Shown in pieces: positions 7,072 to 29,500 of a stretch of DNA of 64,000 nt. The DNA comes from Sulfuricurvum sp. GTDB taxonomy: Bacteria > Campylobacterota > Campylobacteria > Campylobacterales > Sulfurimonadaceae. A program made the position numbers and the translations under genes. Position 1 is the stretch's first letter, and each line of letters starts with the position of its first letter. Below the pieces are notes generated by a model. That model made no database searches, was not told the DNA's origin, and saw only the letters and a program-made list of their open reading frames with translations. The stretch lies in NCBI RefSeq assembly GCF_030691015.1, contig NZ_JAUYFF010000001.1:1-64000 (forward strand). The letters are read 5' to 3'.

Positions 7072-8010
7072 TTACCAATCAAATAATACCGTGCAGTTTT
7101 TATTCGATTTTTTCGCACAATAGAGTGCTTTATCGGCACGACTGATAAGATCTTCCAAAGTATCTCCCTGTTGATGGATCGTAACACCGGCACTGATGGT
7201 GACGTGAACACTCTTCCCCGCATAGAGGAGATTGCTTTTCTCTATTTTTTCGCGAATTTTATCGGCAATCATTTGTGCCTGTGTCACATCACAGCGGTTA
7301 AGGACGACGGCAAACTCTTCTCCTCCATAACGGTACACTTTATCTGCCGTTCGGATCATCCCTTTGATCGTTTGCGCAATGAAATAAAGTACTTTATCCC
7401 CTGCTACATACCCGAATTCATCATTGAGAAATTTAAAGTTGTCTATATCGATCATCATTAAGACCAAAGAGAGTTTTTTGTTAATACCCGCTTCGATTAA
7501 GGGCTCGATATCTTCACTAAATCCTTGGCGGTTTCCAACTTTGGTCAACGGATCGGTGGTGAGTTCCGAGCGGGCTACCTGAAGTTCTTGGTTGAGGGCA
7601 TTAATTTTCGATTGCGATTTTTCAAGCTCTTCATACATCGTTTGATTAAGGGCGCTTAACCCTTCAATAAAAGTGACAAATTTTTCCAACGAACCGGAGG
7701 GGGCGTTATCGATGTATTGACGCTGAAGCTCTGCAACCGATGCGATACCCGAATGTGACTCAATAAAAGAGACGACAGAGTGTTCTACCATATCGAGATA
7801 TTTGGTTACATCCTCTTTGGAATCGCTGAGGGCTTTATGATCTACGTTTTCTTGATCTTTACGAAGCTCTTCATCGGCCGTTTCTGCAAAAAGCTGGTCA
7901 AAAAACTTTTTATACTGCGAAGGATACGGGGGAAGCTTCATTGAACGTAAAAGACCCATCACGTGATCATGAATATCTAATATTTTTTGATTAATGATAC
8001 TGCTATCCAT
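7072..8010 (-). CDS. Diguanylate cyclase (cytoplasmic, GGEEF)
   Basis: A 312-aa soluble protein with an N-terminal helical region (about 1-140), a coiled coil (residues about 130-155) and a C-terminal GGDEF domain. The active motif is RYGGEEFAVVL, preceded by the inhibitory-site motif RTAD five residues before it, so it should make c-di-GMP and be product-inhibited. No membrane segment or signal peptide is visible. The start at 8010 has GGAG about 9 nt upstream, making it better than an in-frame codon at 8046. It is divergent from glnD. The N-terminal domain is not one I recognise, so the input signal is unknown. Confidence 0.88.
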   Translation of the reverse strand: MDSSIINQKILDIHDHVMGLLRSMKLPPYPSQYKKFFDQLFAETADEELRKDQENVDHKALSDSKEDVTKYLDMVEHSVVSFIESHSGIASVAELQRQYIDNAPSGSLEKFVTFIEGLSALNQTMYEELEKSQSKINALNQELQVARSELTTDPLTKVGNRQGFSEDIEPLIEAGINKKLSLVLMMIDIDNFKFLNDEFGYVAGDKVLYFIAQTIKGMIRTADKVYRYGGEEFAVVLNRCDVTQAQMIADKIREKIEKSNLLYAGKSVHVTISAGVTIHQQGDTLEDLISRADKALYCAKKSNKNCTVLFDW

Positions 8011-22967: not shown

Positions 22968-23026
22968 TTACCTCATAAATTCACATCTTGATACTTTCCT
23001 GAGACGATCTGCGCTACACTTTCCAC

Positions 23027-25090
23027 ATGAAAAAGACTCTTTTAATCTATGTGGCACTGATCCTTTTCTTCGGGATCGCCATTGCGGGAATCCTCCACTA
23101 CGGAACACTTTTAGAGAATCCTCTATTCTCTGAAGTCATTGCCCCTGCGGCTTCACTCCCGACAACGATTGGCGACACGTTTCTCAAACAGCTCCATCAT
23201 CCGCTCCCCTTGTTGCTGATCCAGTTTATCGTCATCATGATCGTCACGCGACTATTTGGCTATCTGGTCTCCTTTGTCGCTCAACCCACCGTCGTGGGTG
23301 AGATTGTTGCGGGAATTATCCTCGGCCCCTCACTCATGGGCGCATTGTTTCCCGATATGTTTATCACCCTCTTTCCGAAAGAGTCCCTCGGCAATCTCCA
23401 TCTCATCAGTCAGCTCGGGTTGATCTTTTTTATGTTTGTCGTGGGGATGGAGCTGGATTTTGACAAAATAAAAAAACAATCGAGCGCTTCGGTGTTTATC
23501 AGTCATGTCAGTATCATCTTTCCCTTTTTCTTGGGGGTGGCGTTAGCCTATTGGCTCTATCCGATCTTCGCCTCTAAAAACATCACCTTTATCCCTTTTG
23601 CCCTTTTCATCGGTATCGCGATGAGTATCACCGCGTTTCCCGTACTGGCTCGGATTATCAAAGAGAAAAATATCAGTGATACCCGTTATGGCTCCATGGC
23701 AATCACCTGTGCCGCCGCCGATGATATTACGGCATGGTATATTTTGGCGTTGATTATAGCCTTCTCCATTTCAGGATCGCTCAGTTCCTCCATCGTTTTA
23801 TTGCTCTTTATTGCCTTATATGTCGTCACTATGTTTTACGTCATACGCCCCCTTTTCGCCCGAATCGGACAGGCTCAAAGTGAACGGCTCAGTATGAACG
23901 GGATGTCGTTTATTATCGTCTTGCTCCTTCTCTCTTCACTTGCTACTGAAGCGATTGGGGTACATGCACTGTTCGGAGCCTTTATGGCAGGGGCGATGAT
24001 GCCCTCATCGGCAGTGTCGAGACTCAAAGAACTCATTGCGCCGCGTTTGGAATACGTCAGCCTTTTAGTACTATTGCCCCTCTTTTTCGCCCTAACGGGA
24101 TTACGCAGTGAAATCGGTTTGCTCAACAGTGTAGATGCGTGGCTGATCTGCGGAGGAATCATCGTGATTGCGGTGTTCGGAAAACTCTTTGGAAGCGCCC
24201 TTGCCTCCAAATACATGGGATTTAGCTGGCGTGATTCGTTTGCTCTGGGGATACTCATGAACACGCGCGGATTGATGGAATTGGTGGTTCTTAATATCGG
24301 GTATGAGATGGGGATACTCTCCACAGAACTTTTCACGATGTTTGTCGTCATGGCACTGGCAACAACCATTATGACTGGACCGTTTCTGAATCTCATTACC
24401 CGTGGATTCAAAGAGAACAAAGTCGTCGAAACGATGCAAAAGAGTTTGATCGATCTCCTCTCTCACGAACTGCGGACTCCGCTCACCCTGATACGGGGAG
24501 CCGCCGGTAATTTATCCAATCCACACTTCACCCTTGCCGACAAGGATAAAGAGGAGATGGTTCAAACCATCGTCGAGGGATCACGCCGCATGGAAAAAGT
24601 GATCGATAATTTGCTGGTCAATGCGCGGTTTCGCGAAGGAAAAACCCCTCTGAATAAAACGATGCTTAGAGTGGATGATGTCGTATCTTCTGCACTCTCC
24701 ATAGCTGAGAGTGACTGGAAACGACAGGCTAAACTCTCATTTTCCCCCGATATCCCCCCCCTCAATGCCGATATTGCACTGATTCATCTCGCTATTGGCA
24801 ATCTGCTCGATAACGCCTTTAAATACGGTGACAAGGTGAGTGTCGAAATCACCTCCGCATTTAATGAAATTACTTTGCTTATCTGCAATAACGGCGATCT
24901 CCCCTCTGCCGATACGATAGCAACACTTGGAAATACTCCCGGTCGGCTCGATAATGCGATGGGAAAACCGGGCTCAGGAATCGGTTTACGCCTCTCACAA
25001 AACATCATCGAAGTGCATGGCGGAACATTAGCTATCACATTGGAAAATGACCGTTTTTGCGTTCGGGTAACACTTCGGAGTGAGTCATGA
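23027..25090 (+). CDS. CPA2 cation/proton antiporter fused to a histidine kinase
   Basis: A 687-aa fusion. Residues about 55-440 form a complete CPA2 (Kef/Nap-like) Na+/H+ exchanger domain with PTVVGEIVAGIILGPSLMG and the ion-binding pair Asp232-Asp233 in AAADDITAW. After the last helix comes a HisKA domain with phospho-acceptor His480 (LLSHELRTPLTLIRG) and a HATPase domain with N box NLLDNAFKYG and G box GSGIGLRLSQNIIEVHGG. There is no separate sensor domain, so the antiporter itself is probably the sensor, by analogy with CbrA, which couples a solute symporter domain to a kinase. It overlaps the following regulator gene by 4 nt (ATGA). The signal (Na+, K+, pH or membrane potential) is unknown. 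Confidence 0.9.
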   Translation: MKKTLLIYVALILFFGIAIAGILHYGTLLENPLFSEVIAPAASLPTTIGDTFLKQLHHPLPLLLIQFIVIMIVTRLFGYLVSFVAQPTVVGEIVAGIILGPSLMGALFPDMFITLFPKESLGNLHLISQLGLIFFMFVVGMELDFDKIKKQSSASVFISHVSIIFPFFLGVALAYWLYPIFASKNITFIPFALFIGIAMSITAFPVLARIIKEKNISDTRYGSMAITCAAADDITAWYILALIIAFSISGSLSSSIVLLLFIALYVVTMFYVIRPLFARIGQAQSERLSMNGMSFIIVLLLLSSLATEAIGVHALFGAFMAGAMMPSSAVSRLKELIAPRLEYVSLLVLLPLFFALTGLRSEIGLLNSVDAWLICGGIIVIAVFGKLFGSALASKYMGFSWRDSFALGILMNTRGLMELVVLNIGYEMGILSTELFTMFVVMALATTIMTGPFLNLITRGFKENKVVETMQKSLIDLLSHELRTPLTLIRGAAGNLSNPHFTLADKDKEEMVQTIVEGSRRMEKVIDNLLVNARFREGKTPLNKTMLRVDDVVSSALSIAESDWKRQAKLSFSPDIPPLNADIALIHLAIGNLLDNAFKYGDKVSVEITSAFNEITLLICNNGDLPSADTIATLGNTPGRLDNAMGKPGSGIGLRLSQNIIEVHGGTLAITLENDRFCVRVTLRSES

Positions 25091-25767
25091 CCCCGCGCAT
25101 TTTAATTGTGGATGATGACCCCTCTATACGTCGATTGTTGGCAATGACCTTAGCATTTGCAGGCTTTTTAACAGAGAGTGCTTCAACGGCAAAAGAGGGA
25201 TTGAAAAAAGGTTCCGATGAGCATTTTCATTTGATTTTGCTCGATTTGGGATTGCCGGACATGAGCGGAGTAAAATTTTTAGAGCGCTATAGAGCGGATG
25301 AACAGACTCCCGTCATTGTCGTATCGGCCATCCATGATGAATCGGATAAAATAGCCGCCCTCAATGCAGGAGCGGATGACTATGTCACCAAACCGTTCAA
25401 CACCGATGAACTGATCGCCCGCATTAATGCCAACCTACGCCGAGTCCCTCCAGCACAAGCGACATCTCCGATTTTAATAGTCGAAAATATGCGTATGGAC
25501 ATTACCAATCGGATTGTGAGTATAGAGGATGAATTAATTAAATTGACGCCCAAAGAGTTTAAGCTACTGCGCGTTTTTATGGAGAATCAGGGTAAAGCCT
25601 TAACTCACGCATGGCTACTCAAAGCGATATGGGGAATCGGGTATCAACATGAGACCCACTATCTACGCGTTTTTATCAATCAACTACGTCAAAAGATCGA
25701 AACCGATCCTGCCCGACCGAAATGGATTGTCACAGAGTCGGGGATCGGCTATCGCTTTGTCGGATAG
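25087..25767 (+). CDS. KdpE-like OmpR-family response regulator
   Basis: A 226-aa regulator with receiver (acidic DDD near residue 9, phosphoacceptor Asp53 in LLDLGLPD, Lys in TKPF) and winged-helix DNA-binding domain. The C-terminal sequence around THYLRVFINQLRQKIE, DPARP and VTESGIGYRF is the pattern seen in KdpE. It is translationally coupled to the antiporter-kinase fusion, making a complete two-component pair. No kdpFABC or other target operon is in the window. KdpE relatives control K+ uptake, so a K+/Na+ homeostasis regulon is a reasonable guess; the true targets are unknown. Confidence 0.9.
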   Translation: MTPRILIVDDDPSIRRLLAMTLAFAGFLTESASTAKEGLKKGSDEHFHLILLDLGLPDMSGVKFLERYRADEQTPVIVVSAIHDESDKIAALNAGADDYVTKPFNTDELIARINANLRRVPPAQATSPILIVENMRMDITNRIVSIEDELIKLTPKEFKLLRVFMENQGKALTHAWLLKAIWGIGYQHETHYLRVFINQLRQKIETDPARPKWIVTESGIGYRFVG

Positions 25768-25782
25768 TGCATTGTCAGATTC

Positions 25783-27591
25783 TTAAGCAATAACCCGATT
25801 TCGTCCGCTGTGTTTTGCCTTGTAGAGCTTCTCGTCGGCTCGATGTAACAAATCATCCGCTCGCTCAATCGTATTGAATTCTGCCACACCGATGGAACAG
25901 GTGATGGTTCCGACGGTATCAAAAGGATTTACTTCAATCCGTTGACGCAGTGCATCCGCCATTTTAATAGCGGATGCCAATGAGGTATCCGGAAGGAGAA
26001 TAATAAACTCCTCCCCTCCCCAGCGAGCCACTACATCACTTTGGCGAATCTGTTTACGCAACAGCTCACTGAACGTTTTAAGAACTTCATCCCCTACCAA
26101 ATGTCCGAATTGGTCATTAACCGATTTAAAGTGGTCGATATCCAGCAAAAGGATAGAAAAAGATCTATTATAGCGACGGGCAACCTCTATCGAATGTCCT
26201 AATATTTTGTCAAATTCAAAACGATTTGCAATTTGTGTCAATCTGTCTAACGTCGCCAAATTATTTAGATTCGTAATATCATTGAAAATGACCACATAAC
26301 GGAGCGCATCTTCATACTCAAGCATCTGCACATCCACGGTAAAGGTAGATATTTTTCCGTTAATAGTTATTTTAACTCTGTGCTCACGCTCTTTATGCGC
26401 CAAAATATACTCTGTCCAAACGACACCATCCGTCTGGGGTTGCAAATAATTTTCTGTTTCTGCCGATTCAAACAGTTCACAAATACAGCGGTGATTCTGA
26501 TGAAATTCATCCAATGAGCGATACTTAAAATACTTGTAAAAAGCGGTATTGGCGTAAATGATTTCTCCGTTATCCATAACGACAATAATATTTTTTTGAG
26601 AATTAAGTATCGTAGACGTATAGGCCTCTTGATAGATTATTTTCTTCGTCATACGGCTAAATACGTATTCAACAATCCCTAAAAGTATGATTATAATGAC
26701 GAGGGTCACCATCAAGCTCTCTAAAATAATCTCCAAAGCTTCTTGATATCCTTGTGTAACGTCATTGAAGCACAAGAACATCCCGATCGGATTCCCGTCA
26801 TTGCCTGCTAGATGGATGGGAATGACATCATAATCTTTACCTTGTATATGGATAATACGCTGATTTAGCGCCGGATTATCTTTTGCGAACGCTTCTATCA
26901 ACGGTTTTTGAAAAGGGCTCAAATGAGGAAAACGGTATCCGCTGTATTGCAGTTGATATTTTTGATCGTCCGCCGCTGCCATACGGCTCTCATGCAACAT
27001 AAACAGCGTTTCCATTTTTGTTGATTTAATGAGTTTGCTGATAATAGCATCCGGATCAATTCCAAATTCCAATGCGCCGATATAGATATTTTTATCGGTA
27101 AACGGGACGACAATCCGATACGCGATCCCCTCAATTCCCCCCTCGAATCCGGTGTGTACGCTCTGGGTTCGGTGGGTTTTCTTTATCATGGGGCGACGTG
27201 CCGCGATATCGTCTCCAAACACCTCTTTCCGATGCATACGAAGAATCGATTTTCCATCCGGTGCATGAAACTGCATCACGATAAGATGCGGATTTTCTTC
27301 CCGAAGGGTGTTGTAGCGCGTCAGGGTAAGTTCATACAATTTATTTGAGTCACGCGCAACCATTGCTTCTTTGATTCCGGGTGAGCGGAGATTTGCATAG
27401 GCACGATAAATATAAAAAGATTCCAAATCTTTCTGGATAAAATCATATACTCTTTTAATATTTTGAGACGATGTAAATGCTTTTTCTGATGCGATTTGTT
27501 TTTCATGATACAAAAAATAGGTTGTTAGAATCGTTGAAACAACAAAAATAAGCAAGGTAATGGATAACTGTACGCGCCGCTTAAAACTCAT
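25783..27591 (-). CDS. Cache-PAS diguanylate cyclase (copy 1)
   Basis: A 602-aa membrane sensor: transmembrane helix at about 9-28, a periplasmic Cache-like domain (about 30-290, with FHAPDGKSILRMH and GFEGGIEGIAYRIVVP), a second helix near 295-315, a PAS domain (about 330-440) and a GGDEF domain with RWGGEEFIILL and the RQSD inhibitory site, hence predicted active and product-regulated. AAGGGG lies 4 nt before the ATG. It is a tandem paralogue of the gene at 27689-29500 with the same length and domain order. A 97-nt gap holding a long palindrome separates them. Confidence 0.9.
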   Translation of the reverse strand: MSFKRRVQLSITLLIFVVSTILTTYFLYHEKQIASEKAFTSSQNIKRVYDFIQKDLESFYIYRAYANLRSPGIKEAMVARDSNKLYELTLTRYNTLREENPHLIVMQFHAPDGKSILRMHRKEVFGDDIAARRPMIKKTHRTQSVHTGFEGGIEGIAYRIVVPFTDKNIYIGALEFGIDPDAIISKLIKSTKMETLFMLHESRMAAADDQKYQLQYSGYRFPHLSPFQKPLIEAFAKDNPALNQRIIHIQGKDYDVIPIHLAGNDGNPIGMFLCFNDVTQGYQEALEIILESLMVTLVIIIILLGIVEYVFSRMTKKIIYQEAYTSTILNSQKNIIVVMDNGEIIYANTAFYKYFKYRSLDEFHQNHRCICELFESAETENYLQPQTDGVVWTEYILAHKEREHRVKITINGKISTFTVDVQMLEYEDALRYVVIFNDITNLNNLATLDRLTQIANRFEFDKILGHSIEVARRYNRSFSILLLDIDHFKSVNDQFGHLVGDEVLKTFSELLRKQIRQSDVVARWGGEEFIILLPDTSLASAIKMADALRQRIEVNPFDTVGTITCSIGVAEFNTIERADDLLHRADEKLYKAKHSGRNRVIA

Positions 27592-27688: not shown

Positions 27689-29500
27689 TTAACTAACGAC
27701 CCTGTTTCTACCATTCTCTTTTGCGACATAGAGTTTCTCATCAACACGATTAAGAAGTTGATCCGGAGTCTCCCCCTCATTCCATCGAACCACACCAATC
27801 GAGCATGTCATTGTATTGACGGGAGAAAAATTGCTTTCAGCCACTTTTATACGCAAAGTTTCAGCTAACTTTACAGCAGAAGAGAGTTCGCTATCGGGAA
27901 GTAAAATTATAAATTCCTCTCCACCCCAACGTGCGATGAGATCACTCTTCCGTATTCCGTCGCTCAAAATTTTGGCTAATTTTTTCAATACTTCATCACC
28001 GACTAAATGGCCGTATGTGTCATTAACCGCTTTAAAATGATCCACGTCAATGATCATAATCGAAAGAGCACGATCGTAGCGCTGAGACATAGCAATCGAG
28101 TACTCTAATACTTGATCAAACTTAAAACGATTCGCTAGTTGTGTCAGACCATCCTGCGTCGCCAGCTGATTTAGTCTCGTAATGTCGGTAAAAACAACCA
28201 CATGACGCATTTTATTTTCATACTCTATTTTCTGAGTATGTACGGTAAAAATAGAGGTATTACCCCCAACCGTCATTTTTACTTTATGCTCTTTTGTATT
28301 GTATTGCGTCAAATAATCGATCCATAGCAATCCCTCTGTTTTCGGTTGCAGGTATTCATCCGATTCCACAGACTCAAAAAAATCAGAGATGCAAGAATAG
28401 TCAAGTTGAAATTTTTCCAATGATTCACAGCCAAAATAATCATAAAAGGCTTGATTGGCAAAAATAATTTCTTTCCCATCGGTTACAACAACAATATTTT
28501 TTTGTGAGTCAAGTATCGTTTTAATGTAACGCTCTTGAAGATTTAATTTTTGAATCAGTGTTCCGAACGCATATTCAAACAGACCCAGAAATAAAAGGAG
28601 TAAAGCAGCTGTTAAGAGAATGCTTCCGATAGCGGTTTCAACCTTATTTTGATACCCCCCCGTCACATCATTAATGCACAGGATCACTCCGGCACTTTTT
28701 TCCTCGGAATCTTCCAAGTAGAGAGGATTTATTTCATAATCTTTCTCTTCAATGCGGATATTTTTAGGTCTCATTGCGGGATTCTGATCACTAAATGCAT
28801 CCATATACGCTTCTTGCTCTTTAGAGATAGCGGTAGTGTAACGGTATGCTCCCATCCCCGCTTTGTACAACGATTTATCGGCTGCACCCAAATAATTTTC
28901 ATGAATCATCAAAATACTTGTTGATCCCGTCAACTGTTTAATTTTATTGATGAAATAGTTTGTATCGATTCCGAATTCCAACGCACCGATATACAGATCG
29001 TTATCAAAAATCGGGATAACAATACGATACGCCATCCCTCCTACACCGCCCTCAAATCCTGTTACCATTTTATGGCCTGCATGGGCAGAGCGAAGCATCG
29101 GACGACGCGACGCGATATCATCCCCAAACTTCTCTTTTAAATGCATCCGCAAAATGGAGTGTCCATCAGCCGCGTGATATTGCATGATCATTAGATGAGG
29201 ATTTTCTTCCGTAAATACTCTATAGCGGGGAAGGGTCAGAGCATACAGTTTTTCCGTATCTCTCTTTTTGATCGCATCTATCACACCCTCTAAATGCAAA
29301 GTAGTGTAGGCACGATAAATATAAAAATGTTCAATATCATCTGTCATAGAGTTAAATGCCATTTTGACATTTTCAGAGGAGCGAAGCGAGCGTTCTTTGG
29401 CGTATCGACTTTCATTCGAAATGTGAAAAAATGTAAATATAAGGGAAACGGCAAGAATAATCAGGACAATGACTAATTGTGCACGGAGTTTAAAACTCAT
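27689..29500 (-). CDS. Cache-PAS diguanylate cyclase (copy 2)
   Basis: A 603-aa paralogue of the 25783 protein: N-terminal helix, periplasmic Cache-like domain (YHAADGHSILRMHLKEKFGDD, GFEGGVGGMAYRIVIP), second helix near 295-318, PAS domain and GGDEF domain (RWGGEEFIILL, RKSD inhibitory site). The strong resemblance of the periplasmic domains suggests related ligands. Its start is 24 nt after the stop of the last accessory gene of the molybdoenzyme operon, and no terminator is evident in between, so it may be co-expressed with that respiratory complex. AAGGG lies 5 nt upstream of the ATG. Confidence 0.9.
   Translation of the reverse strand: MSFKLRAQLVIVLIILAVSLIFTFFHISNESRYAKERSLRSSENVKMAFNSMTDDIEHFYIYRAYTTLHLEGVIDAIKKRDTEKLYALTLPRYRVFTEENPHLMIMQYHAADGHSILRMHLKEKFGDDIASRRPMLRSAHAGHKMVTGFEGGVGGMAYRIVIPIFDNDLYIGALEFGIDTNYFINKIKQLTGSTSILMIHENYLGAADKSLYKAGMGAYRYTTAISKEQEAYMDAFSDQNPAMRPKNIRIEEKDYEINPLYLEDSEEKSAGVILCINDVTGGYQNKVETAIGSILLTAALLLLFLGLFEYAFGTLIQKLNLQERYIKTILDSQKNIVVVTDGKEIIFANQAFYDYFGCESLEKFQLDYSCISDFFESVESDEYLQPKTEGLLWIDYLTQYNTKEHKVKMTVGGNTSIFTVHTQKIEYENKMRHVVVFTDITRLNQLATQDGLTQLANRFKFDQVLEYSIAMSQRYDRALSIMIIDVDHFKAVNDTYGHLVGDEVLKKLAKILSDGIRKSDLIARWGGEEFIILLPDSELSSAVKLAETLRIKVAESNFSPVNTMTCSIGVVRWNEGETPDQLLNRVDEKLYVAKENGRNRVVS

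Follow-up and report, generated by a model that had tools for sequence, protein, structure and literature searches.

What KdpD-type histidine kinases sense is a long-standing question, and the locus described here asks whether an ion antiporter can supply the input of such a kinase. In a 64,000-nucleotide stretch of Sulfuricurvum DNA (the window), an open reading frame with an ATG start at 23027..25090 (plus strand, as for all features of the window below unless marked otherwise) encodes a 687-aa protein in which a CPA2 antiporter continues into a histidine kinase. Pfam placed a Na_H_Exchanger domain at residues 73-455 (23243..24391; PF00999, E 4e-56, model positions 2-370 of 375), a HisKA/DHp domain at residues 473-536 (24443..24634) with the phospho-acceptor His480 at 24464-24466, and a HATPase_c domain at residues 582-684 (24770..25078), each above its cut-off. 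The CPA2 model TIGR00932 of NCBIfam matched at E 6e-44, with 150.7 bits against a cut-off of 238.3. The Pfam scan found no PAS, HAMP, STAC, DUF4118, KdpD N-terminal (PF02702) or Usp domain in the protein, and a spacer of ~17 residues (456-472, 24392..24442) leads from the predicted last transmembrane (TM) helix to the DHp helix. The stop of the fusion overlaps, in an ATGA, the start of a 226-aa OmpR/PhoB-type response regulator (25087..25767). An earlier note on this DNA had described a full CPA2 exchanger joined to HisKA and HATPase domains with no other sensor, and had singled out Asp232, Asp233 and His480; no further domain was recognised, and all three residues lie where it had placed them.

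To examine the integrity of the gene, which the earlier note had advised checking in relatives, we searched the genus. Of 41 Sulfuricurvum genomes, 11 carry the fusion intact and free of internal stops, at 72-93% identity (in two of these, G020 and G025, the gene is split across contig ends), and D232/D233 and H480 are invariant in all fusions. A frameshift or misassembly joining two genes might be suspected, since the family also has stand-alone members, but 11 genomes of separate assemblies read through this junction without interruption and the fusion has its own conserved promoter, and we regard such an artefact as excluded for practical purposes. The dN/dS of the transmembrane part was ~0.03-0.08 between species, indicating that the gene is maintained, and was below that of the kinase part in six of seven comparable pairs. 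One pair behaved differently in identity: between the window and the G007 fusion (L030) the antiporter part is 82.5% and the kinase part 86.5% identical, the reverse of other pairs, and recombination at the domain border of the G007 fusion is possible.

We aligned the antiporter part with the structurally characterised NapA and KefC, whose residue roles are described (PMC11150392). Asp232-Asp233 (23720..23725) aligned with NapA D156/D157 at the ion site and Lys386 (24182..24184) with NapA K305, and all three residues are invariant in 28 aligned homologues, including non-fused ones. The protein thus has the NapA-type D-D-K set, the set behind the term electrogenic-type in the earlier note, whereas K+-selective KefC has Q-D at this site (PMC11150392). 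The AlphaFold model of the fusion (mean pLDDT 66; ~75 in the TM part) superposed on inward-facing NapA (5bz2) with Z 31.6 and on KefC (9emb) with Z 24.2, and suggests 14 TM helices, the N-terminal one being additional to those of NapA. A motif and the architecture, rather than a tree, suggest the CHX type as a possible affiliation of the domain. CHX-type CPA2 proteins exchange K+ (PMC7573149). With D-D-K invariant and dN/dS low, the antiporter looks functional by sequence. It could instead be transport-dead, either a binding sensor like Ks-Amt5, which is reported to bind ammonium and not to translocate it (PMC5764959), or a membrane anchor or dimeriser. We consider this improbable: the transport residues are all invariant, and a mere anchor should drift, whereas the dN/dS of this part is mostly below that of the kinase part.

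How widely the architecture occurs was examined in several collections. Among 397 genomes of the class, no genus other than Sulfuricurvum carried the fusion, and outside it only stand-alone antiporters were found. The stand-alone orthologues, from three other families of the order, are 464-475 aa long, share 57-62% identity with the antiporter part and terminate at the residue where the fusion runs on into the kinase. The fused kinases form one clade (support 100/100). Since the stand-alone orthologues end at the junction, the fusion looks, from these sequences, like a one-time joining of an antiporter gene to a kinase gene. A GTDB scan seeded on two antiporter peptides, which unrelated CPA2-kinase fusions would escape, found fusions in Sulfuricurvum-like contigs and in one 6.8-kb contig labelled Methylotenera (93%), which is probably misbinned. 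Homologues from Bacteroidota (~756 aa) have a different C-terminal tail in the kinase slot, with a weak Usp match at best (E 0.008). The sole plasmid match covering >80%, from Rhizobium, was rejected as a fusion: it is an antiporter whose tail has no visible kinase motif. Searching phages with the junction, we obtained no match that covered it.

In the tree, the kinase core of the fusion groups with the kup-linked DUF4118 kinases of the genus (99/99) and not with KdpD itself. It retains His480 and intact N and G2 boxes, and the Asp of its G1 box (residues 612-632 region) is replaced by Asn. A kinase dead through a degenerate G1 box was considered and weakened, as this Asn also occurs in the kup, trk and kdp kinases of Sulfuricurvum. 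The G1 boxes of the kinases of this K+ clade (L026-L041, L134-L144) read CNNG, CNTG or SNPS, unlike that of E. coli KdpD. Residues 461-547 have pLDDT <50, with a break in the model near 459-461, and the AlphaFold prediction of kinase part and junction is too poor to judge whether the TM helix continues into the DHp helix.

The regulator was identified as a member of the clade that controls K+ uptake. Its best NCBIfam model is KdpE, at 220.5 bits and below the equivalog cut-off of 325, and it is 44% identical to E. coli KdpE, so that the overlapping gene is KdpE-like, as the earlier note had it. D53 and K102 are present, and His480/D53 is by sequence a candidate phosphotransfer pair. R194, R201 and T216 are the conserved counterparts of R193, R200 and T215, which KdpE needs for DNA binding (PMC3264566). 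In a tree with 22 other OmpR-type regulators, it falls among the kup, kdp and trk regulators, which form a clade with it at 97/97, and pairs with the kup regulators at 91/88. When five genomes were searched whole and the hits ordered by score, its identity was 58-61% to kup regulators, 48% to KdpE, 46% to the Trk regulator and at most 37% to other full-length OmpR-type regulators. A duplication of the kinase-regulator pair as one unit, in which the DUF4118 sensor would have been swapped for the antiporter, is consistent with both trees.

We then looked at the genes next to the fusions, another check that the earlier note had proposed; kup or kdpABCDE stands beside some of them. A common arrangement in the genus is kup, then a 329-358-aa kinase with DUF4118, the membrane domain of KdpD, and then a regulator; trkH/trkA are preceded by a similar kinase-regulator pair. 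The order is kup-HK-RR-[fusion-RR] at L027 and L037, whereas at L030 and L035 [fusion-RR] directly follows kup in the order kdp...kup-[fusion-RR], with kdpBCDE at L030; at L026, kdpABCDE lies near the fusion-RR pair. The locus of the window lies between pgpA and GGDEF/torD genes. This pgpA locus holds kup-HK-RR at L038 and L141 (and, towards pgpA, at L140), the fusion in the window, L028 and L032, and both in tandem at L027. In total, the fusion is linked to K+ genes in 5 of 11 fusion genomes, which partly share ancestry and are not independent. A search of the window's own genome found no kup, kdpA or KdpD; this genome carries Trk, whose TrkH adjoins a DUF4118 kinase-regulator pair. The PF02702, Usp and DUF4118 domains are present in the KdpD of neighbouring species.

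To look for regulatory sites, we used an operator matrix trained on kup, kdp and trk upstream regions only, with no fusion sequence. The best match in the 64-kb window is at 22987 and scores 17.5 bits, followed by one of 12.5; the E. coli KdpE site (TTTATA-CTTTT-TTTACA; PMC3264566) scores 17.0 bits on the same matrix. The predicted KdpE-type operator (22988..23004) consists of TTGATA (22988-22993), the spacer CTTTC and CTGAGA (22999-23004); 10 bp separate the second half-site from the -10-like hexamer TACACT (23015..23020), which itself stands 6 bp ahead of the ATG. A score as high turned up somewhere in one of 20 random windows, and the weight therefore rests on position: the box lies 39-40 bp before the ATG, its location being shared by 12 of 12 fusions, while their DNA further upstream differs. 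The kup and trk operons have an upstream direct repeat of the 6-bp half-site with a 5-bp spacer, the kup box TTTATA-CTTTC-TTTATA being near-identical to the E. coli site. The second half-site of the fusion is CTGAGA, not TTKAYA; CTGAGA recurs in kup promoters. An expression composed after seeing the sites (half-site-N5-half-site-N10-TANNNT) matched 12 of 12 fusions, 14 of 17 kup and 7 of 8 trk upstreams, against 0.4% of shuffles. In the 2.33-Mb genome of the window, the exact pattern has two matches, the fusion and the Trk operon; these have zero mismatches by construction, having supplied the pattern, so what counts is that there is no further exact match. Matches with one mismatch were at control level. 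The second kup of G016 (L152), without a linked kinase-regulator pair, has no box. None of the 12 fusions has a Shine-Dalgarno sequence before its ATG and, with the -10-like hexamer only 6 bp away, the mRNA is probably leaderless.

The likely direction of signal flow can be weighed against these results. The kinase could be a regulatory tail controlling the antiporter, like the RCK domain of KefC, and the regulator would then act as a modulator. C-terminal regulatory domains do gate CPA2 proteins such as KefC (PMC11150392), and in the Bacteroidota homologues the place of the kinase is taken by another C-terminal domain. However, the co-inherited DNA-binding regulator and the operator point to a transcriptional output, and the kinase keeps His480 and its N and G2 boxes, which makes the reverse flow quite unlikely. 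In KdpD, both outputs are reported to coexist (PMC11018627).

Signalling from antiporter to gene fits the locus better than the reverse flow: a K+-control circuit seems to have recruited the antiporter as its input. The proposal of the earlier note that the transporter itself is probably the sensor stands in so far as the protein offers no candidate input domain other than the antiporter, and its open list of Na+, K+ or pH is narrowed to a link with K+ by the gene neighbourhood, the phylogeny of kinase and regulator and the KdpE-type operator. We think it fairly probable that the fusion is a transceptor in the K+-control circuit of part of Sulfuricurvum, the state of the antiporter gating a KdpE-type regulator. 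Architecture, conservation, phylogeny, K+ gene linkage and operator can be read from the DNA. In the proposed mechanism, a NapA-type CPA2 cation/H+ antiporter would stand where a KdpD-like kinase once had its small DUF4118 membrane sensor, and binding or exchange of K+ (or Na+) and H+ would shift the core domain relative to the dimer scaffold. TM12 and TM13 of KefC, which has been superposed on NapA, are in the moving core domain (PMC11150392); since the last helices of both belong to this core, its movement would shift the DHp helices. The last TM helix would reach the DHp helix with His480 within ~17 residues, so that the antiporter state could set the kinase/phosphatase balance, and the phosphorylated regulator would act on KdpE-type boxes of its own operon and of the K+-uptake operons (kup, kdp, trk). 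We infer the ion, the coupling, the direction of signalling, the phosphotransfer and the regulon. The specific version, in which an elevator-type antiporter cycle drives the kinase through the last core helix with no linker domain, the antiporter having supplanted the KdpD membrane sensor in a regulon for K+ uptake and K+/H+ flux or occupancy being the signal, is put forward tentatively.

The same fusion could also respond primarily to Na+, pH or membrane energisation, with the K+-uptake genes as the response. Cells usually answer salt and pH stress by taking up K+, and Na+/H+ antiporters like NapA have this D-D-K set, whereas KefC has Q-D. Every regulatory and genomic link points to K+ uptake, however, and CHX-type CPA2 proteins, a possible affiliation of the domain, exchange K+ (PMC7573149). 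We therefore regard a primary Na+, pH or energisation signal as rather unlikely.

Compared with the transceptor proposed here, the SLC5-STAC kinases CbrA, CrbS and RpuS likewise have a complete secondary transporter as the N-terminal kinase input, which may combine transport with a receptor role (PMC13022988, PMC7096432, PMC9100948). Their transporter is an SLC5 symporter and not a CPA2 antiporter, CbrA has STAC and PAS linkers where the fusion has neither, nor any SLC5, and CbrA and CrbS control carbon and amino-acid use whereas the fusion is tied to K+. Ks-Amt5 also joins a transporter fold to a kinase and uses it as a sensor (PMC5764959), but has an Amt channel fold that is reported to have lost transport and senses ammonium, whereas the fusion is of the monovalent cation/H+ type. 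KdpD/KdpE share with the fusion-RR pair the regulator clade, the predicted operator and, in some relatives, kdp neighbours, and the kinase cores may be related; KdpD has the KdpD N-terminal, Usp and DUF4118 inputs, and the fusion has an antiporter instead. Closest in kinase core and regulator is the kup-linked cassette of Sulfuricurvum (DUF4118-HisKA-HATPase kinase and regulator), which occupies the same chromosomal locus in several species and has the same promoter architecture, but whose kinase has a small DUF4118 sensor and directly follows kup. NapA and KefC share the fold, and NapA also the D-D-K site; both lack a kinase, and in KefC the tail is an RCK domain and the site reads Q-D. The CHX-type exchangers of plants and bacteria are likewise CPA2 proteins with an extra N-terminal TM helix and no kinase; CHX17 has a Usp-like tail (PMC7573149), and the weak Usp match lies in the tail of one Bacteroidota homologue of the antiporter domain. 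By sequence, the fusion belongs to neither the SLC5-STAC nor the Amt kinase family, nor is it KdpD, since all KdpD input domains are absent. Transporter kinases are known, the CbrA type being named in the earlier note, and in the open-access literature we found no CPA2-kinase fusion described. Evolution seems to have left the kinase core, regulator clade and operator in place and swapped the input for a protein understood through NapA and KefC; with an input whose ion site and motion are understood, sensing would become testable. If the reading is right, antiporters would join the short list of transporters (SLC5, Amt) that act as kinase inputs.

Other genes near these loci were also recorded. 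Two tandem homologous GGDEF proteins adjoin the fusion in the window (25783-27591 and 27689-29500, minus strand); a homologue at L029 (8918-10726) has dCache_3, PAS and GGDEF domains. A ~975-aa MutS-like protein stands beside K+ regulator cassettes of several species, at L031 (3104-6046), L036, L040, L137, L139 and L143; the L031 copy, the one scanned, has an HNH_2 domain. A conserved ORF of ~30-35 codons, encoding a predicted single-TM peptide (e.g. MHLADNIWVVVSEGVVLFALVIVILVKIASTINK), occurs at L134 (about 7870-7990, minus strand) and upstream in L144, L145, L146, L147, L148 and L150. The KdpE-type box lies on one side of it and the Trk-linked DUF4118 kinase on the other, a KdpF-like position.
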